Shown: positions 7,812 through 48,992 of the stretch, piece after piece | Layout of the letters: each line of letters begins with the position of its first letter | Position numbering within the stretch: the stretch's first letter is position 1 | Assembly: GCA_029907255.1 (NCBI GenBank) | Contig: JARYMF010000011.1 | Coordinates: forward strand, 1-64,000 | Source of the DNA: Armatimonadota bacterium | GTDB lineage: Bacteria; Armatimonadota; UBA5829; DTJY01 | DNA length: 64,000 nt | Reading direction: 5' to 3' | Program-made: the position numbers and the translations under genes | The notes under the pieces: generated by a model | Seen by the model: the letters and a program-made list of their open reading frames with translations, nothing else | Told to the model about the DNA's origin: nothing | Databases searched by the model: none

Positions 7812-8870
<1,059 letters not shown>

Positions 8871-8901
8871 CTTCTATTAACTAGGAATTCTGCTATGGAC
8901 G

Positions 8902-8951
8902 GTTGGGGTCGTCGGGTGAAAGTTTTTAAACAATTACCTAACGACCCCAAC
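8902..8951 (+). repeat. Hairpin in the gap-pgk spacer
   Basis: GTTGGGGTCGT (8902-8912) is the exact reverse complement of ACGACCCCAAC (8941-8951), enclosing 28 bases. No U-tract follows, so it is a poor intrinsic terminator; an mRNA-processing or stabilising element, or a partial terminator, is more likely. Confidence 0.6.
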
Positions 8952-9007
8952 GCCTGACGAAGAAACACGGGAAATCTTATTCGTCGTTTTATAGGGAGGA
9001 GTTTTCC

Positions 9008-10216
9008 ATGAACAAAAAAACTGTTGAGGATATTGATGTCAGCAATAAACGAGTACTTGTCAGAGTTGACTTCAACGTTCCCCTCGATGAAAATTGCAAC
9101 ATCACCGACGACCACAGAATAGTAGCTGCTTTACCCACCATTAATTATCTAATCGACCATGATGCAAAAGTAGTTCTTGTAACACACCTTGGACGTCCGA
9201 AAGGACCAAGCGATAAGTTGCGGCTGGATCCGGTTGCAAAGAGACTCAGTGAACTTCTTGGGAAACCGGTCAAAAAGCTTAATGATGCCATAGGTCCAGA
9301 GGTCGAGGCTGCCGTAAACGAGATGAAGCCTGGGGATGTCATCCTTTTGGAAAACATTCGTTTCTATGAAGAGGAAGAAAAGAACGACCCTGAATTTGCG
9401 AAGAAGCTTGCTTCGCTAGCAGATATTTATGTAAATGATGCGTTCGGTACTGCCCACCGTGCGCATGCTTCTACTGAGGGTGTTGCGCATTACCTTCCTG
9501 CTGTTGCAGGCTTCCTAATGAAAAAAGAAATAGAGTATCTAGGTAAAGCGCTTTCCAATCCAGATAGGCCTTTTGTTGCAGTGCTTGGTGGCGTGAAGGT
9601 TTCTGACAAAATCACCGTAATTGAAAATCTCCTCAACAAGGTTGATGCGCTTTTGATTGGCGGCGCAATGACCTATACATTCCTAGTTGCGCAGGGTTAT
9701 AAGGTTGGAAACTCCATGGTTGATAAACCGGGAATCGAACTTGCAAAGAATGCAATGGAAAAGGCAAAAGCCATTGGTGTAGACCTTGAATTGCCAGTAG
9801 ACGTGGTTGCAGTCGAACTTCCAGCAGATTTCGATATACCGTCGGGCGTTCCCGCTGATGTTGACATTAAAATTGTGCCTGCAACAGCCATTCCTGAAGG
9901 GTACCGTGGCTTGGATATCGGTCCGAAAACAGTAGAACTGTTTTCTCAGAAAATCAAGTCTGCGCGCACCGTGGTATGGAATGGTCCGATGGGGGTATTT
10001 GAAGATCCACGCTTTGCAAATGGTACATTAGGGATTGCCAAAGCCATGGCGGAATCAACAGCAACAACCATAGTAGGCGGCGGAGATTCTACTGCTGCAG
10101 TAGAGCAGATGGGGCTTGCAGATAAAATGAGCCACGTTTCGACTGGCGGCGGGGCATCCCTAGAGTTTCTAGAGGGCAAAGAACTCCCCGGTGTTGCAGC
10201 ATTAAACGATAAGTAG
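9008..10216 (+). CDS. pgk: Phosphoglycerate kinase
   Basis: Transfers phosphate from 1,3-bisphosphoglycerate to ADP, the first ATP-forming step of glycolysis. 402 residues, normal length. Signature [21 protein letters not shown] segment near the N-terminus, substrate site [16 protein letters not shown], and the C-terminal nucleotide site [10 protein letters not shown] and [14 protein letters not shown] ribosome site AGGGAGGAG precedes ATG 9008. Lies 137 bases downstream of gap and 111 bases upstream of tpiA on the same strand; both spacers carry a strong hairpin. Confidence 0.97.
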
Positions 10217-34541: not shown

Positions 34542-34655
34542 ATGCACCACCAATTTTCTTTTCGTTAGGTTGTCATTAATACCTTCAAAGCTGAAGGTTA
34601 TTTTGCTTATTATGGTGTAAAAGGTCATTAGAACGTATTACTTTTGGAGGCAGAT

Positions 34656-35594
34656 ATGATATTAAGAAGGATTGTCATATTCTTGGTTATTTGTATTTCA
34701 GTTGTCGGTATCGCTAGTTGCGGCAAAAAGCAGGCTGAAAAGCCGAGAATTGCGTTGATAATGAAATCACTTGCCAATGAATTTTTTAAGACTATGGCAG
34801 AGGGTGCGGAAAAGCATCATAAAGAGCATGCATCCGAATATGAACTAATTGTAAACGGAATCAAGGATGAATTAGATGTAAATAAGCAAGTTGAGCTTGT
34901 CGAGCAAATGATTGCCCAGGGTGTTGACGCGATTGTAATTGCGCCTGCTGATTCAAAAGCCTTGGTTTCGGTATGCAAAAGAGCCGCTGATGCAGGCATT
35001 GTTGTCGTGAATATAGATAACCGATTTGATAGCTCTGCTCTCAAAGAAGCAGGGCTCAAGGCACCCTTTGTTGGTCCGGACAACCGCAAAGGTGCGCGAG
35101 CGGTTGGTGAAGTGGTAGCTAAGTTATTGAAGCCTGGCGATAAGGTTGCGATATTAGAGGGAGCGCCGAACGCATATAATGGCGAACAGCGAAAATTGGG
35201 GTTCCAAGATGCTATGAAAGCCGCTGGAATCCGGGTTGTTACCTCCCAAACGGCGTATTGGGAAACCGATAAAGCGAACGCACTCGCACGCAGTATTATT
35301 ACTGCACATCCGGATATCAAGGCGCTCCTTTGCGGGAATGACAGTATGGCTATTGGAGCGGTAAAAGCCGTCGAAGAGGCGGGAAAGTCTGGAAAGATTT
35401 TAGTGGTTGGCTATGATAATATCAGCGCGGCACAAGAGCTCCTTAAGGAAGGTAAGTTGCTTGCCACGGCTGACCAGCATGCTGATCAACTTGCCGTTTA
35501 TGGCATTGAATATGCTCTAGAAATGCTTCGATGCAAGACTGCACCAAAGGATAAAGAAACTCCGGTAGATTTAATAACTAAAGTAGAAAATTAG
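34656..35594 (+). CDS. Rbs-type sugar-binding lipoprotein
   Basis: 312 residues. Lipoprotein signal peptide with a Cys in VGIASCGKK (about residue 23), then the periplasmic-binding-protein type I (RbsB) fold: PRIALIMKSLANEFFKTMAEGAE, QVELVEQMIAQGVDAIVIAPADSKAL, NIDNRFD, GDKVAILEGAPNAYNGEQRKLGF, ALLCGNDSMAIGAVKAVEEAG. Binds a sugar such as ribose or another monosaccharide outside the inner membrane. ATG 34656 follows GGAGG; divergent from the sulfatase gene. Its permease follows 43 bases later. Confidence 0.92.
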   Translation: MILRRIVIFLVICISVVGIASCGKKQAEKPRIALIMKSLANEFFKTMAEGAEKHHKEHASEYELIVNGIKDELDVNKQVELVEQMIAQGVDAIVIAPADSKALVSVCKRAADAGIVVVNIDNRFDSSALKEAGLKAPFVGPDNRKGARAVGEVVAKLLKPGDKVAILEGAPNAYNGEQRKLGFQDAMKAAGIRVVTSQTAYWETDKANALARSIITAHPDIKALLCGNDSMAIGAVKAVEEAGKSGKILVVGYDNISAAQELLKEGKLLATADQHADQLAVYGIEYALEMLRCKTAPKDKETPVDLITKVEN

Positions 35595-35637
35595 CACTGC
35601 GAAAACTCAAGAACATTAAATCGCTGTCAGAGAAAAT

Positions 35638-36597
35638 ATGAAAAAGGCAACGCCGTCAACCCTTAAGTGGCTGAAAGATATAGTAGGTTTAGGCACCATC
35701 TTAGTCGCCCTTGTAGTCTACTTCAGCATTAGAAGTCCAAACTTTTTGACAGCCACGAACTTTACTGCAATTGCCAATCAAATTCCTGCTGCGCTATTGG
35801 TTGCTGTTGGAATGACGCTTGTATTGATTACTGCGGGGATTGATCTCTCGGTTGGTTCGCTTGTGGGGCTTTCTGGTGCAGTATTGGGACTCAGCATTGA
35901 CCGCATTGGTTTACCTCTTCCGATAGCAATTCTAGCTTGCATTGCCACGGGACTATTTTGCGGGATGATCAATGGTCTAGTAATTGTAAGGTGGGCTTTA
36001 CCACCCTTCATTGTTACCTTGGGAATGCTTGAAGTTGCCCGTGGCGCAACTTTCCTTCTTACCGAGACTCGCACAATCTATTTGGGTTCCAAGATTAGCA
36101 AAATTGCAGGGTTAGGGGTTGCAAATATTTCTGTGCTTTTTATTATTGCAATTGCCGCAGTAGTCTTGGGCCAATTGATTTTGTCGCGGTGTACTTTTGG
36201 GAGGTACTTAATTGCCATTGGAGCAAATGAGCAAACGGCATATTTATCGGGAATTAATACGTCAAGGATAAAAGTCTCAGTGTATGCGCTTTCAGGCTTA
36301 CTTTGCGCAATGGCCGCGGTGGTGAACACCGCTCGCATGGCTTCGGCAAATCCCAACGCTGGCACAGGTTTCGAATTAGAAGCAATAGCGGCAGTAGTAA
36401 TCGGCGGAACTAGCCTAATGGGAGGCCGTGGTTCGGTAATAAACTCTATGTTGGGTGTGTTGTTTATGGCAATACTGAGCAGCGGACTTTCACAGATTGG
36501 CACAGAAGAAGCAACAAAGCGAATGATTACAGGCTTTGTGATAGTATTGGCTGTCATCCTTGATTACTACCGATCTAGAATTACTTCAAAAAGTTAG
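35638..36597 (+). CDS. Rbs-type sugar ABC transporter permease
   Basis: 319 residues, around ten hydrophobic segments. BPD_transp_2/RbsC family: VGMTLVLITAGIDLSVGSLVGLSG, INGLVIVRWALPPFIVTLGML, FGRYLIAIGANEQTAYLSGINT and AVVIGGTSLMGGRGSVINSMLGV. It forms the inner-membrane channel for the binding protein encoded directly upstream. No RbsA-type ATPase gene follows; the next gene belongs to a different transporter class. Confidence 0.92.
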   Translation: MKKATPSTLKWLKDIVGLGTILVALVVYFSIRSPNFLTATNFTAIANQIPAALLVAVGMTLVLITAGIDLSVGSLVGLSGAVLGLSIDRIGLPLPIAILACIATGLFCGMINGLVIVRWALPPFIVTLGMLEVARGATFLLTETRTIYLGSKISKIAGLGVANISVLFIIAIAAVVLGQLILSRCTFGRYLIAIGANEQTAYLSGINTSRIKVSVYALSGLLCAMAAVVNTARMASANPNAGTGFELEAIAAVVIGGTSLMGGRGSVINSMLGVLFMAILSSGLSQIGTEEATKRMITGFVIVLAVILDYYRSRITSKS

Positions 36598-36716: not shown

Positions 36717-36745
36717 TTGACATCGCATGTAAGCTTTGTTATACT
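36717..36745 (+). promoter_or_regulatory. Promoter of the fused binding-protein/permease gene
   Basis: TTGACA (36717-36722), 17 bases, TATACT (36740-36745). It rules out the TTG at 36736 as start, because transcription would begin near 36752. Confidence 0.8.
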
Positions 36746-36801
36746 TCCTGTATAGTTTGTTCTTCTTAGGACATCTTCGTAATATCACCACGGAGGTCTG
36801 C

Positions 36802-39279
36802 TTGTTCAAGATCCAAAAGCATATACTGCGCTTGCTGTTTGCTTGTATGTTAATCTCCTGCGGCTCAGGGCTTATTTTGGCCGATACGGACACTAACAAG
36901 TCCGCTAAAGGAGATATTGTTGAGCTTCGCTTATGGGGTGGAGATTGGGGTATTCCTCCTAAAGACGCTACCGACCCTTGGCGGCGTGCAAATCGCGCAG
37001 TTTTTGAGCGGTTTCAGGAATTACACCCGAACATAAAAATCATTAGCGCAAGCGGCTTGCAGGTGCAAGGAAGAGCAGCAGAGAGTGGCTTACTCATGGC
37101 AATGGCAGGCGGTACTGCCCCTGACGTCTTCTATGTCAATTTTCGAAAGCTTCACAATTTTATAAACCAGGGGTTTCTCTATCCCCTCAATGAGTACATC
37201 GAAAAAGACCCCGAAATATTAAAGAAAATTCATCCAGAAATCCGAAAAGTCATAACTGTAGATGGCAAGGTATATTCGATTCCGTGGTTTCAATGCGTAC
37301 AAGCCTTATATTATCGTAAAGACCTTTACAAAGCTGCCGGCCTTGATCCAAACAAACCTCCCAAAACTTGGGATGAATTCTATGAGTATTGCAAGAAGCT
37401 AACTATCCCTGAAAAAGGTCAATGGGGTTTTGCGTTCTCGTCAGGGCCAAGTAGTACGGCTTTCCATTGGATTAATTTTCTATGGCAAGCTGGTGGCGAT
37501 ATTGTTGCTCAAGATGAAAAAGGCGAGTGGCATTGCGTCTTTAATTCGCCGGCAGGTGTGAAAGCGCTTAATTTTTACAAAAAGCTAATGATTGGAAAAT
37601 GGAAGCGAAATGGCCGCGAAATGATTGGAGTTGCAACTAGGACAGCCACCTACGCACAGGATATTGAACAAGGGAAAATAGCTCAGTGGTTTGCATATTC
37701 CACCGATCTTGTAACCAACCGTTCGAACATCAATCCGAGCTTGATAGGAATTGCGCCGCTCCCAGCGGGCCCGGCGGGGCATGCGAATGAAATCAACGCC
37801 GGTATGTGGGGAATCAATGCCACAATAAAAGACAAGCGTGTTCGAGATGCTGCTTGGGAATACATCAAGTTCATGGGCAGCGAAGAAGCCGACAGGGTGC
37901 GAACAAAGGCGTACGTAGAGTCGGGGTTGGGAAAAATGGTTAACCCCGTTATGCTCGAGAAGTATGGCTATGTCGAATACCTCCGCGGAATTCCAAAGAG
38001 TTGGATCGAAGCTAACAGGGAAGCTTTTAAATATGGTCGGCCCGAGCCTCATGGCAAAAATTGCGAGATGATTTATATTGAGCTTGATTATCCCCTGCAG
38101 GAAGCCGTCCTTCGTCCTGACAAAGACCCTAAACAAATTCTGGATGAAGCCGCTCGCAATATTGACCGCAAAATGCTTGGCTATGTAGACCCTAGGGTCC
38201 AAGAAAGAAGAAGAAAGACGGCTCGTGTTATATTTGCGACGCTCCTAGCGCTCATTTGCTCAGTTGGTGCAACGCAGGTTAGAAAGTTGGCAAAGGCGCA
38301 TGCTGATGAAACTGCAGACACGAGGGTCGTGCGCGGTAGCAAGATGGTTCATGTGGTCGCTTGGATTTTCATGCTTCCGGCAGTGCTTTCAATACTTGTT
38401 TGGGCATACTACCCGCTTGTTCGTGGAATGATTATGGCATTCCAGGATTACCGAATTATTGGCAACAGCAGATGGGTTGGTTTGGACAATTTTATTGAAG
38501 TGTTCACAACAGAAACTTTCTGGCGGGGTATCTTAAACAGTTTATTATATGCGGGGATGAACCTAAGCCTTGGCTTCTGTGTACCAATTTTCCTAGCATT
38601 AATGCTTCATGAAGTTCCACGTGGCAAGATGCTTTTTAGAACTCTCTACTACCTACCTGCAGTAACAAGTGGTCTTGTAATTATGTTTCTTTGGATGTGG
38701 TTCTATGACCCCACGCCCCAAGGACTTTTCAATACACTTTTAGGATTTTACAATCAAGCTGCAGAAGCTCTTGCGAACACATTAAGAATCAACCCAGAAA
38801 TCCTCAAATTTAATTTGCCTCTTAAATGGCTAGGCGATCCAAAACTGGCTATGCTTTGCGTCATACTTCCAGGCATATGGGCGGGTGCTGGACCTGGAAG
38901 TATTATTTATCTAGCTGCAATGAAGAGCATTCCTGATGAAATGTACGAGGCAGCGGATATTGACGGTGCTGGCGTATGGAGCAAGATATGGCGCATAACG
39001 TTGCCAACCCTAAAGCCTCTTATAATTATCAATTTCGTTGGAGCATTCATAGGTTCGTTTAAGGCAATGGAGAACATCTTTGTAATGACGGGTGGCGGCC
39101 CTCTAAATGCAACTCACACTATTGGCCTCGAAATATGGTACAACGCATTTATGTATTTAAGATTCGGATATGCTACAGCCGCCGCTTGGATGATGGGAAG
39201 TATGCTGATAGCCTTCACAATGTATCAGCTACGCATATTGAGAAACGTCCGCTTTTCCGCAGCAGGGAGGGAAGAATAG
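36802..39279 (+). CDS. Fused sugar-binding protein / MalF-type ABC permease
   Basis: 825 residues. An N-terminal signal peptide (possible lipobox LISC at 17-20) leads to a complete family-1 solute-binding protein (about 40-450: LRLWGGDWG, AESGLLMAMAGGTAPDVFYVN, YSIPWFQCVQALYYRKDLYKAAGLDP, MWGINATIKDKRVRDAAWEYIKFMGSE). A hydrophobic helix near 472-490 (VIFATLLALICSVGATQV) carries the chain in, and a full MalF-like permease follows (about 515-825) with the EAA loop MYEAADIDGAGVWSKIWRITLP. The topology is consistent: binding domain outside, permease N-terminus inside. TTG 36802 is chosen for GGAGG at 36792-36796 and for lying after the promoter. The stop abuts the next permease start. Confidence 0.9.
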   Translation: MFKIQKHILRLLFACMLISCGSGLILADTDTNKSAKGDIVELRLWGGDWGIPPKDATDPWRRANRAVFERFQELHPNIKIISASGLQVQGRAAESGLLMAMAGGTAPDVFYVNFRKLHNFINQGFLYPLNEYIEKDPEILKKIHPEIRKVITVDGKVYSIPWFQCVQALYYRKDLYKAAGLDPNKPPKTWDEFYEYCKKLTIPEKGQWGFAFSSGPSSTAFHWINFLWQAGGDIVAQDEKGEWHCVFNSPAGVKALNFYKKLMIGKWKRNGREMIGVATRTATYAQDIEQGKIAQWFAYSTDLVTNRSNINPSLIGIAPLPAGPAGHANEINAGMWGINATIKDKRVRDAAWEYIKFMGSEEADRVRTKAYVESGLGKMVNPVMLEKYGYVEYLRGIPKSWIEANREAFKYGRPEPHGKNCEMIYIELDYPLQEAVLRPDKDPKQILDEAARNIDRKMLGYVDPRVQERRRKTARVIFATLLALICSVGATQVRKLAKAHADETADTRVVRGSKMVHVVAWIFMLPAVLSILVWAYYPLVRGMIMAFQDYRIIGNSRWVGLDNFIEVFTTETFWRGILNSLLYAGMNLSLGFCVPIFLALMLHEVPRGKMLFRTLYYLPAVTSGLVIMFLWMWFYDPTPQGLFNTLLGFYNQAAEALANTLRINPEILKFNLPLKWLGDPKLAMLCVILPGIWAGAGPGSIIYLAAMKSIPDEMYEAADIDGAGVWSKIWRITLPTLKPLIIINFVGAFIGSFKAMENIFVMTGGGPLNATHTIGLEIWYNAFMYLRFGYATAAAWMMGSMLIAFTMYQLRILRNVRFSAAGREE

Positions 39280-41157
39280 ATGTCAATTATCCCAACTGTT
39301 GGCAGACGTTCGTGGTCAATGCGCTTGCTCATCGCGGGATTATATATTGTCCTAACTTTGGGGGCAATAACGATGGTCTATCCCTTCCTCATTATGTTGG
39401 CAACCTCCACAAAAAGCGGTGTTGATGTTAACAGCTACAGCGTAATACCTAAATACTGGTATGACGATTCGATTCTTTTCGCCAAATTTGCCGAGATAAA
39501 GTATGCTGCCGATATGGACGCAATCAATGGCTATTACCGTACCGACTTTGCAAAAATGGAGGACATTGCTCCACCCCAGAAAACACCTCTCACGACAAAT
39601 CAAAAGAGAATGGTAAAGGACTGGGAGGATTTTAGTCGGACAATTCCGCTTAAGTATATGCAAGCAAATTATGGCGTCATAAGTAATGCTCCAAGCCGTT
39701 TGCTAAACGAATATCGGGCTTGGCTTCGAAAGCGATTTAATAACGACATTAATGCTCTCAACAAGCTTTATCGCGAGGAAAATGAAAGCTTCGAGACCGT
39801 TTTTACACCTTTCGAGCGCACGGAAAGCCGTGAGTGGCAGCCAGAGAAAACCCCAAAAATGCAAGAGTGGCTGAAGTTCAAAGCATCATTGCCATCGGAA
39901 TTTCGGCGGGTAATTTGCATCGATCCACTGTTTTGGACATTCTTAAAGGAGAACAAATACGATGGCGATATATCCAAACTAAACAAAGCCTACGGTACTA
40001 ATTACAAATCATTTATGGAAGTTCACCTTTCCCCTACCCTTCCCGCTGACCCTAGGCAAAGAGCCGACTGGGAAGAGTTCGCACGAACTATGCTTCCGTT
40101 CCGTTATATGGTTCTAAACTCAAAGGCATTGCCGGCTTATCAGAAGTTTCTTCAAAACCGTTATGGGGGAAATATCGAAGAAGTAAATAGAATCTACGGT
40201 ACAAATTACTCATCATTTAACCAGATTGTCTTACCAGAGGAGGCGCCAGCTGAGGGAACACCGCTTGTTGACTGGATGGATTTTATTTCGAAAGTTGTTC
40301 CAGTCACTGCAATAAAAGCTGTAAACTCAGAAAACCTATACAGGCAATATCTTTTCAAAAAATACGGCAGCTTTGATGCAATCAATAGAGCCTACGGAAC
40401 AAAGTATGCTTCTCTTCTAGACGTATCTCCGCCCCAGCACCTTGCCGACTGGCATTATGTACTTACACACCATAGGGAATTGAGGAAGCACTTTATAATT
40501 CGCAATTATGCAATGGTTTTGAACTACATACTTCTTCACGGAAGGGCAGTATTCAACACTTTTGTCTTTTGTCTGGCCGCTATTTTAACCCATTTAATTG
40601 TTAACCCGCTGTGCGCTTATTCTCTTTCGCGGTATAACCTTCGCTATTCGTATAAGGTGTTGCTCTTTTTGTTAGCCACAATGGCATTTCCTGCGGAAGT
40701 AACATTGATTCCGAATTTCTTGCTCCTAAAGAAGCTCCATATGCTTAACACTTTTTGGGCACTGATTCTTCCCGGAATGGCTGGTGGGTTTTCGATTTTC
40801 CTACTTAAAGGTTTCTTTGATAGCCTCCCGAAGGAACTTTATGAAGCTGGAATCATCGATGGAGCATCCGAAGCACGGATGTTTTGGCAAATCACAATTC
40901 CGCTATCTAAGCCTATTTTTGCAGTGATTGCACTCAGTTCATTTACGGCGGCGTATGGAGCGTTTATGTTTGCGTTTCTGGTTTGCCAAAACCCAAAAAT
41001 GTGGACGATGATGGTTTGGTTGTATGAGCTTCAGATTACGGCCCCGAAGTATATAACTATGGCTGCATTGACAATAGCAGCCATACCAACACTAACAGTC
41101 TTCGTCTTCGCACAAAATGTTATTATGAGAGGTATCATTCTACCAAGCTTTAAGTAA
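39280..41157 (+). CDS. MalG-type permease with a repeated extracytoplasmic domain
   Basis: 625 residues, more than twice the normal MalG length. TM1 at about 15-42 is followed by a ~370-residue insertion (about 50-415) before the remaining helices and the EAA loop LYEAGIIDGASEARMFWQITIP near 520. The insertion contains about five units of 60-80 residues built on the pattern (Y..FL..KYG..)(I..LN..YGT.Y.SF..V..P)...(DW..F): LN/IN segments near 81, 160, 235, 302 and 368; Trp at 115, 197, 264, 332 and 391. It lies outside the membrane. The pattern resembles linker phrases of GH42-type beta-galactosidases (KYG..ALN.AWGT). Starts with no spacing after the fused gene; GGGAGGGAAG is its ribosome site. 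Confidence 0.92.
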   Translation: MSIIPTVGRRSWSMRLLIAGLYIVLTLGAITMVYPFLIMLATSTKSGVDVNSYSVIPKYWYDDSILFAKFAEIKYAADMDAINGYYRTDFAKMEDIAPPQKTPLTTNQKRMVKDWEDFSRTIPLKYMQANYGVISNAPSRLLNEYRAWLRKRFNNDINALNKLYREENESFETVFTPFERTESREWQPEKTPKMQEWLKFKASLPSEFRRVICIDPLFWTFLKENKYDGDISKLNKAYGTNYKSFMEVHLSPTLPADPRQRADWEEFARTMLPFRYMVLNSKALPAYQKFLQNRYGGNIEEVNRIYGTNYSSFNQIVLPEEAPAEGTPLVDWMDFISKVVPVTAIKAVNSENLYRQYLFKKYGSFDAINRAYGTKYASLLDVSPPQHLADWHYVLTHHRELRKHFIIRNYAMVLNYILLHGRAVFNTFVFCLAAILTHLIVNPLCAYSLSRYNLRYSYKVLLFLLATMAFPAEVTLIPNFLLLKKLHMLNTFWALILPGMAGGFSIFLLKGFFDSLPKELYEAGIIDGASEARMFWQITIPLSKPIFAVIALSSFTAAYGAFMFAFLVCQNPKMWTMMVWLYELQITAPKYITMAALTIAAIPTLTVFVFAQNVIMRGIILPSFK

Positions 41158-46005: not shown

Positions 46006-46950
46006 ATGAAAAAGCCATTCCGTTACAATCTTGGGCGAATCATGCAGATTCGGGAGCTACCTGCCCTAGTTTTCTTGCTCTTGGCGGTTGTATTCCTTTG
46101 GAACAAGGCTCCGAACTTTGGTGAACATGCGAATCTACTCAGTATCGCTAGGGAAACAAGCATAGTAGGGATTATGGCAGTTGGAATGACTGCCGTCATT
46201 CTCACGGGCGGAATTGATTTGTCGGTTGCTTCAGTACTAGCGCTCTCAGCTTCTGTAATTGCAATCCTTGCGGTTAATGGGTCAAACCTACTGATAGCAA
46301 TATTGGCTGGGTTAGGAATAGGAACCGCGTGCGGTGCGTTGAACGGCTTACTCATTACTTTTTTGCGAATACCACCAATCATAACGACGCTTGGTACTAT
46401 GGCAATATACCGAGCGGCTGTAACTTTATTCACCCAAGCAAAGTGGATTGGCCCGCTGCCGGCTGGAATGGCTTTTATAGGTAGCAAGATAACACCTGCT
46501 TTTATCCTCTTCTTAATTGCTACTATTACGTCACTTTTTTTATGGAAGTGTAGGTTAGGCAGGTATATCCAAGCCATCGGCGGCAATGAGAATGCTGTGC
46601 ATCTGTCGGGAATAAGCGTGCGCAAAGTAAAGCTACTGGTTTATATGTTGAACGGCTTTCTTGCGACGGTCGCAGGTTTAGTAATGGCGTCTTCAGCAAA
46701 TTCAGCTCAAGCGAATATGGCATTGGGATATGAGTTAAATGTAATCGCTGCCGTGGTTATTGGCGGAACAAGCATATCAGGCGGGCAAGGTTCAGTCATT
46801 GGCTCGGTCCTTGGTGCTGCCATCATGTCTGTTTTATACAGTGCGCTTATCTTGTTAGACGCCTCAATCTATTGGCATAAGTTAATCTTGGGCGGAGTAA
46901 TTCTTGCAGCTGTGTTGCTCGATAAATTCCGATACCTGACAAAACAATGA
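46006..46950 (+). CDS. Rbs-type sugar ABC transporter permease 1 of second system
   Basis: 314 residues, BPD_transp_2/RbsC family: MAVGMTAVILTGGIDLSVASVLALSA, LGTMAIYRAAVTLFTQ, LGRYIQAIGGNENAVHLSGISVRKVKLLVY, AVVIGGTSISGGQGSVIGSVLG. Inner-membrane permease that probably pairs with the next permease as a heterodimer. ATG 46006 lacks a clear ribosome site; an alternative is the internal ATG 46039 (MQIRELPALVF). The stop overlaps the next start by ATGA. Confidence 0.9.
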   Translation: MKKPFRYNLGRIMQIRELPALVFLLLAVVFLWNKAPNFGEHANLLSIARETSIVGIMAVGMTAVILTGGIDLSVASVLALSASVIAILAVNGSNLLIAILAGLGIGTACGALNGLLITFLRIPPIITTLGTMAIYRAAVTLFTQAKWIGPLPAGMAFIGSKITPAFILFLIATITSLFLWKCRLGRYIQAIGGNENAVHLSGISVRKVKLLVYMLNGFLATVAGLVMASSANSAQANMALGYELNVIAAVVIGGTSISGGQGSVIGSVLGAAIMSVLYSALILLDASIYWHKLILGGVILAAVLLDKFRYLTKQ

Positions 46951-47921
46951 GTTCAATCCTTAGGTCGAAAGAATTAGCAGTCTTTATCCTTTTTGTGGTT
47001 GTATTTGCATTTTTCACGATGCAAACCGAACGTTTTGCAGCTCCGGACAACCTATTCAACGTTGCGCGCCAATATTCGGAGCTGGCAGTGGTATCCGTCG
47101 GGTTGACGATGGTTATAATAACCGGCGGAATTGATATATCCGTTGGCTCAGTAGTTGGATTGTCCTCTGTGCTGGTTGGCGTTCTTAGTTCAATTTTAGG
47201 CTTGAACATTTGGGTTTCATGCGTTATAGCCGTTTTTGCTGGGTTGGGATGTGGATTAATCAACGGCCTTTTCATTACGAAAGCAAAATTACAGCCAATT
47301 GTTGTCACGCTTGCTATGATGAGCGCAGCGCGAGGGCTTGCATATGTTCTGACTCGGGGAAGTTCAATTTCGGGGTTTCCGGATGCTTTTGCTGCGCTAG
47401 GGCAGAAAGCGATTGGTCCAATTCCATGGATAGGGTATATTCCACTGCCTGTGTTTATTGCTCTTATATTAGTAATGCTTGGCGTACTCTTGCTCAGAAG
47501 GACAGCGCTAGGAAGAGGAATATATGCGGTTGGTGCAAGCGAGGAGGCGTCGAGACTTTCTGGAATAAACGTTTTTAGAATAAAGTTATTCGCCTACTCA
47601 TTTACCGGTTTGCTGTGTGGATTGGGAGGCGTAATGATGGCTGCAAGGCTGGTATCCTCAGTGCCCGACGCCGGTGCCAATTTTGAATTTGAGGCAATCA
47701 CCGCAGTTGTAATGGGAGGAAGTAGCCTCAGAGGTGGCGAAGGAAACATAACAGGTACAATAATAGGTGTTGGGGTAATGGCAATCTTAAGAAATGGCTT
47801 GAATCTTATAGGAGTCCCGGATATTTGGCAGGGATTATTTCTTGGTGTAGTTCTAATACTAGCTGTTCTAGCTGATAATCTAAGAAATGCATTGCGTGAA
47901 AGGCTGAAGTTGCAATTTTGA
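46947..47921 (+). CDS. Rbs-type sugar ABC transporter permease 2 of second system
   Basis: 324 residues, same family: SVGLTMVIITGGIDISVGSVVGLSS, GLINGLFITKAKLQPIVVTLAMM, LGRGIYAVGASEEASRLSGINVFRIKLFAYSFTGLLCG, AVVMGGSSLRGGEGNITGTIIG. Overlaps the previous gene by four bases (ATGA), so it is translationally coupled. Two distinct permeases in one locus is the AI-2/rhamnose-type arrangement, in contrast to the single permease of the first Rbs-type system. Confidence 0.93.
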   Translation: MSSILRSKELAVFILFVVVFAFFTMQTERFAAPDNLFNVARQYSELAVVSVGLTMVIITGGIDISVGSVVGLSSVLVGVLSSILGLNIWVSCVIAVFAGLGCGLINGLFITKAKLQPIVVTLAMMSAARGLAYVLTRGSSISGFPDAFAALGQKAIGPIPWIGYIPLPVFIALILVMLGVLLLRRTALGRGIYAVGASEEASRLSGINVFRIKLFAYSFTGLLCGLGGVMMAARLVSSVPDAGANFEFEAITAVVMGGSSLRGGEGNITGTIIGVGVMAILRNGLNLIGVPDIWQGLFLGVVLILAVLADNLRNALRERLKLQF

Positions 47922-47939
47922 GAGGAGGAACAACCAACG

Positions 47940-48992
47940 TTGGACATGAAAATTAAGAATCGACTTTTTTGCTGGGTCGCATCAATACTGCTAACAGCAA
48001 CAATAATTTTTTACGCAACAAGTTGTTCACAAAAACCCACTGCACCCATAAAACCGAAGAAACCGCAAGCGGCTAAACAAGAGACACGCAAGCGCAAGAT
48101 TGTGTTCGTAATGAAGCTCGTTGGTATACCTTATACGAATGCTTGTGAGCGGGGAATGAAGAAAGCTGCGGAGGAACTTGGCATAGAGGCAAGTTTTCTT
48201 GGGCCTCCTGGAGCTGCTGACATAATAAAACAAATTAATATCATTGAAGATCAAATCTCAGCTGGCGTGGATGCAATTGTAGTGTCACCTAATGATGACA
48301 AAGCGATAATTCCTGTTATTGAAAAAGCTACAAAAATGGGAATCAAGGTGTTTACTTGGGATTCAGACGCACCCGCGAGCAAGCGCATTTTTTATGTTGC
48401 AGCAGCCGACGATGTTGGCATCGGGCGCGATATTATAGATCGAATTGCAAAAGACATTGGCGGGAAGGGTAAAGTTGCCATAATGTCTGGCGGTCCAAAT
48501 GCGCTCAACCTAAATTTGCATATCAAAGGTGTCGAAGAGGGTGCAAAAAAGTACCCAGGTATTAAAATTGTTACACCCTATTTATACAATAATGACGACC
48601 AACAGCAAGCTATTACAGCAGCGGTAACCATGCTCCAACGGCATCCAGATCTTGCCGCATTTGCATGTGTGAATTCCCCTGGTGTGCCCGGTGTGGCACG
48701 TGCGCTTATCCAAACCGGAAAGGAAGGTAAGGTTAAAGTATGGGGGCTTTCTTTGCCAAGCGAGAATCGCGATTACATTAAGAAGGGCATTGTTAATGGT
48801 TTGATACTTTGGGACCCTGCAAAGCTCACATATCTCGCTACTAAGCTTGTCAACGACTATCTAGACGGAAAGAAACCAGTTGATGGGATGACTGTACCGG
48901 GCATCGGAAAGCTAAAAGTAAGCAAAGACGGTGTTATTATAATGCCAGGTGTTGTTATTACTAAAGAGAATGTAGACCAATTTGATTTCTAA
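47940..48992 (+). CDS. Sugar-binding lipoprotein of second Rbs-type system
   Basis: 350 residues from TTG 47940 (GGAGG 11 bases upstream; ATG 47946 is an alternative). Signal peptide with lipobox YATSC, a Pro/Lys-rich linker, then a type I periplasmic-binding fold: KIVFVMKLVGIPYTNACERGMKKAAEELG, ISAGVDAIVVSPNDDKAIIPVIEKA, VFTWDSDAPASKRIFYV, GKVAIMSGGPNALNLNLHIKGVEEG, and GLILWDPAKLTYLATKLVNDYLDGKKP. The pattern fits rhamnose (RhaS)- or autoinducer-2 (LsrB)-like binding proteins. Substrate unproven. No ATPase gene adjoins. Confidence 0.9.
   Translation: MDMKIKNRLFCWVASILLTATIIFYATSCSQKPTAPIKPKKPQAAKQETRKRKIVFVMKLVGIPYTNACERGMKKAAEELGIEASFLGPPGAADIIKQINIIEDQISAGVDAIVVSPNDDKAIIPVIEKATKMGIKVFTWDSDAPASKRIFYVAAADDVGIGRDIIDRIAKDIGGKGKVAIMSGGPNALNLNLHIKGVEEGAKKYPGIKIVTPYLYNNDDQQQAITAAVTMLQRHPDLAAFACVNSPGVPGVARALIQTGKEGKVKVWGLSLPSENRDYIKKGIVNGLILWDPAKLTYLATKLVNDYLDGKKPVDGMTVPGIGKLKVSKDGVIIMPGVVITKENVDQFDF

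Follow-up and report, generated by a model that had tools for sequence, protein, structure and literature searches.

A MalG-type permease with a five-unit repeat insert in its P1 loop, partnered by a fusion of substrate-binding protein and MalF

Results

A MalG-type permease with an enlarged periplasmic loop

We analyzed a stretch of 64,000 nucleotides from an Armatimonadota genome of 3.23 Mb, and refer to that whole stretch as the window. On its forward strand, where all the permease and fusion features described below lie, positions 39280..41157 encode a 625-residue protein with the coordinates and MalG-type layout given for this open reading frame in the original prediction. A first transmembrane helix, TM1 (residues ~23-41, part of an AlphaFold helix spanning residues 12-43; 39313..39408), is followed by a long insert and then by a permease core comprising TM2 to TM6 (40471..41139), in which an EAA motif at residue 519 reads ELYEAGIIDGA. 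TM1 and the C-terminal set of helices together supply the six required of such a subunit. Pfam BPD_transp_1 matches residues 452-619 (E 2e-15), the best NCBIfam names are UgpE and MalG (E 1e-22 and 3e-19, both under the equivalog cut-offs), and the structural neighbors found by Foldseek for the full-length model are subunits of alginate (AlgM), trehalose (SugB), and maltose (MalG) importers. The product is the MalG component of an ABC importer of the carbohydrate type.

The helices after the insert and the permease domain begin at about residue 398, leaving between TM1 and TM2 an extra stretch of about 355-360 residues that is foreign to ordinary MalG proteins; the original estimate of ~370 residues is revised to this length, while the five units counted within it stand. 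Measured on a near-identical protein of a congener, the distance from TM1 to the TM2 anchor is ~385 residues, compared to 42-61 in those MalG proteins of the host genome, five in all, whose MalF partner is unfused. The MalG proteins of those five systems are 276-298 residues long, in agreement with the expectation that an ordinary MalG has about 280 residues and lacks such a domain. Permeases of the MalG/UgpE type (PF00528), such as those of Escherichia coli MalFGK2, LpqY-SugABC, and AlgM1M2, share with the window protein the TM2-TM6 core, the EAA motif, and MalF and substrate-binding protein (SBP) partners, but their P1 loop between TM1 and TM2 spans ~40-60 residues rather than ~385.

The insert consists of ancient repeats with a predicted helical fold

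Five repeat units occupy the insert. Unit 1 covers residues ~63-129 (39466..39666), unit 2 residues ~140-211 (39697..39912), unit 3 residues ~215-279 (39922..40116), unit 4 residues ~281-347 (40120..40320), and unit 5 residues ~350-396 (40327..40467). The tryptophans noted earlier at positions 115, 197, 264, 332, and 391 are all present, one per unit in that order and each within a (D/E)W.. motif. When residues 45-415 were aligned to themselves, the score was 207, compared to 34±5 for 20 shuffled sequences, a clear answer to whether an internal repeat exists. A 34-residue unit profile (consensus, LFRKFLRKRYGGDIEALNKAYGTDYASFEEVALP), started from units 2-5 and refined by iteration across the family, found exactly five copies, at residues 66-99, 145-177, 217-251, 286-319, and 353-385, spaced by 67-79 residues and scoring 37-54 bits each.

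AlphaFold modeling of the insert alone, another check proposed for the original prediction, gave five equivalent copies of one αA-αB-turn-αC(-β) module (mean pLDDT 83.4, pTM 0.78). In each predicted module, a long helix is followed by a shorter one, a turn, and one more helix; a short strand comes after modules 1-4, and the fifth module passes straight into TM2. This model was built from a five-sequence alignment and was the best of five, clearly ahead of the other four; across all of our AlphaFold models, 5-19 sequences lay beneath each. The full-length model was concordant with it over units 3-5. Tryptophan, phenylalanine, leucine, and proline positions are conserved in every unit in the manner of a packing core, and W264, R269, W332, F335, R355, and P385 are invariant across a diverse family alignment. 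Self-alignment, unit profile, and predicted modules together rule out a chance repeat.

When units from different proteins were compared, those at equivalent positions were 43% identical and those at different positions 29%, so the array is ancestral. No DNA-level tandem array was detected in the region coding for the insert. The repeats are ancient, and a recent tandem duplication at the DNA level is ruled out by the unit identities and the lack of a DNA array.

Each unit resembles a segment of GH42/GH14 glycosidases

The resemblance to GH42-like enzymes that drew attention to this protein proved real and significant: Pfam Glyco_hydro_42 (PF02449) matches the permease above its cut-off (E 1.7e-15) in four stretches, all of which map to profile positions ~148-213 of 376, with unit 4 giving the best match. 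Conversely, the unit profile trained on the permeases picked out eight further proteins encoded in this genome, all with GH42-like segments, and matched each of them once; in the best GH42 protein of that genome (L124) the match follows directly after the region with the NE motif. In sequence, then, the module is similar to the part of GH42/GH14-type barrels that comes just after the catalytic acid, where this segment is helical, lies beside the active site, and occurs once per enzyme. Foldseek found no PDB match to the whole insert at E<=0.001, so that a known fold for the entire insert was rejected; the leading weak matches (E ~0.5 and worse) were to glycosidases, namely, GH42, beta-amylase, and related barrels, and were local, covering ~70-110 columns or roughly one unit. 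GH42 beta-galactosidases and GH14 beta-amylases (PF02449, PF01373) therefore have one αA-αB-turn-αC segment inside a barrel that matches each repeat unit, while the window MalG has five tandem copies, with no barrel and no catalytic residues. A segment of a GH42/GH14-type barrel here appears, judged by sequence likeness, as a tandem structural repeat, which may reflect either glycosidase ancestry or convergence toward a similar helical motif.

As the Glyco_hydro_42 match exceeds the Pfam cut-off, automatic annotation may call the insert a beta-galactosidase, and one could ask whether it retains glycoside hydrolase activity. We consider this extremely improbable. Only the one span of the profile is matched, repeatedly; the model contains five helical modules in place of a complete catalytic barrel; the NE motif with the catalytic acid/base precedes the matched segment in the genome's GH42 protein and so is absent from the repeats; and the region of the nucleophile falls outside the matched span as well. 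The absence of the catalytic pair effectively rules out catalysis, and a beta-galactosidase label on these permeases would be wrong.

A different role suggested by the same likeness is glycan capture, with the insert forming a periplasmic lectin-like array that would borrow its module from glycoside hydrolases and enrich oligosaccharides near the importer. The original prediction held glycan binding or capture to be a reasonable hypothesis. The GH42 likeness on which it drew is upheld, but the repeated segment is helical and neighbors an active site instead of being a carbohydrate-binding module, and for that reason the likeness alone is no argument for glycan binding. The residues conserved in every unit fit a packing core, and no CBM family was among the Pfam matches of the window insert at E values up to 1. 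Other evidence, from a paralogous locus and from MalG proteins with an unrelated insert, speaks in favor of capture and is given below.

The partner gene encodes an SBP fused to MalF

Immediately upstream, with no gap between the genes (its stop codon ends at 39279 and the MalG ATG begins at 39280), lies a gene for an 847-residue protein in which a sugar-type SBP and a MalF-type permease are covalently joined in one open reading frame (36736..39279). Its Pfam SBP_bac_1 domain (residues 88-385; 36997..37890) is connected by an extra TM helix (residues 495-513; 38218..38274) to a MalF part with its own BPD_transp_1 domain (residues 614-831; 38575..39228). The nearest solved relatives of the SBP part are trehalose/maltose-binding proteins, a group too broad for any single sugar to be named. 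The N-terminus of the fusion (window 36736-36890) reads LLFACMLISCGSG and resembles a lipobox, which might mean that a lipid also anchors the fused SBP. GlnPQ and OpuA (PMC8025302) likewise have substrate-binding domains covalently tethered to the translocator, but here the SBP is N-terminal to the MalF-type subunit and attached through the extra helix, and the large insert is on the other permease subunit, MalG.

We found no ATPase gene separating the two permease genes or immediately flanking them. The genome has a single OB_MalK-type ATPase, located elsewhere, and the MalFG pairs therefore probably share it, with this lone ATPase serving several of them; a nucleotide-binding subunit common to several importers is known in other bacteria (PMC7658222). 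Two ribose-type ABC gene sets, with SBP and permease genes, lie in the window at 34644-36597 and 46006-48992, and no ATPase was seen among the genes scanned near either set. The neighboring sulfatase, isomerase, and ribose-type transporter genes are common essentially only within the genus and were for this reason set aside in inferring a substrate.

The MalG family occurs together with the fusion

A second family member in the host genome (contig C7) is 617 residues long and 48% identical to the first. The family was found in 135 of 255 Armatimonadota genomes (E<=1e-50) and also in records of Oligosphaera ethanolica, Kiritimatiellae, and Firestonebacteria; in the Oligosphaera phylum, 33 of 145 genomes matched an Oligosphaera query (E<=1e-60), many of them in the C-terminal part only. 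No plasmid-borne relatives of the insert were found. Recognizable units range from one or two up to five per member, and linkers vary too; the two members of the f16 group that were examined, 503-508 residues long, have one or two.

Among the 135 carriers of the MalG family, 131 also encode the SBP-MalF fusion, and of the 120 Armatimonadota genomes without the family, 88 lack the fusion. The value for this association (Fisher 2e-35, 255 genomes) is inflated by genome kinship. Most of the 32 fusion matches in genomes lacking the family were weak (30 with E above 1e-80), and the loci among them that were opened (G018, G023, and G026) encode other fused types. The two genes need not be adjacent: one genome (G111) has the MalG gene at 1.796 Mb and the fusion at 1.886 Mb, about 90 kb apart, and another (G038) has them on different contigs. 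That the genes lie far apart in several genomes argues for a link in function and not just in position.

Contacts between proteins are often made by helical solenoids, and the insert could accordingly be a docking platform for a periplasmic protein other than the SBP, such as a secreted glycoside hydrolase or an envelope component. The wide variation in unit number and linkers would suit such a role. Besides the fusion, however, no conserved third gene accompanies the family, the other neighbors being shared essentially within the genus; six orphan copies, compared by eye, had no partner in common. We regard this reading as distinctly unlikely.

Enlarged P1 loops were found only with fused SBPs

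We surveyed the length of P1 in MalG and the state of the neighboring MalF in 104 systems. In this sample, which was chosen by similarity to the window MalG and is phylogenetically clustered, a P1 of more than 100 residues was found in 32 of the 38 systems whose SBP is fused to MalF and in none of the 66 unfused systems (median in the unfused systems, 43; maximum, 87). The fused systems group into four MalG clades, all supported, with unfused systems branching between them, and count as four clades, not 38 events, with enlargement in three of the four. The host genome follows the same pattern, its three fused-SBP systems having MalG proteins of 625, 617, and 361 residues.

The insert-bearing groups are three separate supported clades with apparently unrelated inserts. 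In two Omnitrophota MalG proteins (L063:8372-9664 and L077:8375-9742), which stand beside SBP-MalF fusions, the insert occupies the same site between TM1 and TM2 as in the window protein, but these proteins belong to a separate clade and carry a CBM30-like domain instead of helical repeats (E 1e-6 in L063, above the Pfam cut-off; E 1.4e-5 and 25.5 bits in L077, just under it). In the third clade, Armatimonadota MalG proteins of 355-438 residues, among them the 361-residue protein of the host genome (L173:2920-4005), whose fusion is at contig C3:182004-184436, share the enlarged P1 and the fused partner, but their insert is much smaller, has no Pfam match, and was judged strand-rich by eye. The remaining fused clade (L176, L207, L209, L210, and L212) has fusions of ~770-785 residues and a normal MalG P1 of 41-46 residues. 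Tethering thus needs no insert, and a strict rule that a fusion requires one is ruled out.

With three separate insert-bearing clades, enlargement of P1 alongside the fusion looks recurrent: P1 appears to have been enlarged on three or more occasions, always together with a fused SBP, the alternative being one origin followed by losses. Within the survey sample, this leaves a testable rule, that a MalG protein with an enlarged P1 is always accompanied by an SBP-MalF fusion.

Discussion

We give even weight for and against the proposal that the insert acts as a scaffold on which the tethered SBP docks and is positioned. Such a scaffold would work as follows. With the SBP permanently tethered through its fusion to MalF, the rigid five-unit helical solenoid that replaces the MalG P1 loop between TM1 and TM2 would contact the SBP on the MalG side and hold or orient it over the translocation gate, a job that in MalFGK2 falls to the short P1 loop of MalG and the large P2 loop of MalF. 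It is from the repeats, their predicted fold, their likeness to a glycosidase segment, the family, and its association with the fusion that we infer a contact between insert and SBP and an effect on transport.

MalE reportedly touches both P1 of MalG and P2 of MalF (Daus et al. 2007, Mol Microbiol 66:1107, cited in PMC3150292). The N-terminal region of MalE is pulled toward MalG and its C-terminal region lies near MalF, with one terminal region interacting mainly with MalG (PMC3150292). Since the insert sits exactly in P1, a loop that contacts MalE, a dock for the SBP is the most economical reading, and it is favored further in that enlarged P1 loops were found only with SBP-MalF fusions. Beyond what the TM parts account for, divergence of the insert correlates with that of the SBP (partial r 0.40, p 0.013), but the values for MalF-TM (0.37) and MalG-TM (0.33) are about equal to it, and no SBP-specific coupling is thereby demonstrated.

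Divergence data could also suit a structural spacer that binds nothing in particular, grown by duplication and tolerated since P1 is exposed. Compared to the TM core, the insert diverges at roughly twice the rate (mean distance, 0.69 for the insert and 0.35 for the core), and recognizable units have been lost in distant members. Against a spacer, a large insert persists across Armatimonadota, Oligosphaera, and Kiritimatiellae with its invariant residues conserved, and P1 is comparably enlarged in three clades of MalG, in every case alongside a fused SBP. We think this reading very unlikely.

Glycan capture is the main rival to an SBP dock, chiefly owing to the Omnitrophota proteins, in which an independent insert at the same site resembles CBM30; this counts against docking, as it suits glycan binding better. 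A paralogous locus (L043:12561-14999) is followed by a gene for a GH94-like phosphorylase and a putative glycoside hydrolase gene, both recognized by eye, which may be taken in favor of capture and as a possible hint of a disaccharide substrate for that copy. Set against the packing-core conservation and the nature of the repeated segment, these points leave capture a reading that we doubt more than we credit, though one to be taken seriously. The docking scaffold remains our preferred reading. The broader proposal, that an unnamed repeat domain derived from a glycosidase active-site segment has become a built-in periplasmic dock for a tethered SBP and that enlargement of P1 by unrelated domains recurs with SBP-MalF fusion, we hold with slightly less than even confidence.

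Importers of this class are already known, as are fused SBPs and multitask ATPases, and MalG proteins of the repeat family are common in public genomes. In the open-access papers searched, we found no description of a MalG protein whose P1 holds a solenoid of tandem glycosidase segments and none of the association between P1 enlargement and fusion, in keeping with the original remark that no transporter of such design was known to have been described. The family is large and conserved and has representatives in culture, namely, Oligosphaera ethanolica and probably Fimbriimonas ginsengisoli. It thus opens a way to study the positioning and release of a tethered substrate-binding domain, and the fused clade with a short P1 offers a natural comparison set.

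A few family records have peculiarities of their own. One member (L036:985-2994, from G008) has an extra, partly hydrophobic stretch of ~60 residues in its permease core, shortly after ATMAFPAEV. A Firestonebacteria member (L045:8001-9882) is split over two frames, with the N-terminal part at 8001-8483 and the rest at 8470-9882, which is a frameshift or an assembly error. The MalG protein of a record titled Actinomycetota (L044, SYKE01000135.1) clusters inside the Armatimonadota members, and the name of that record may be wrong.
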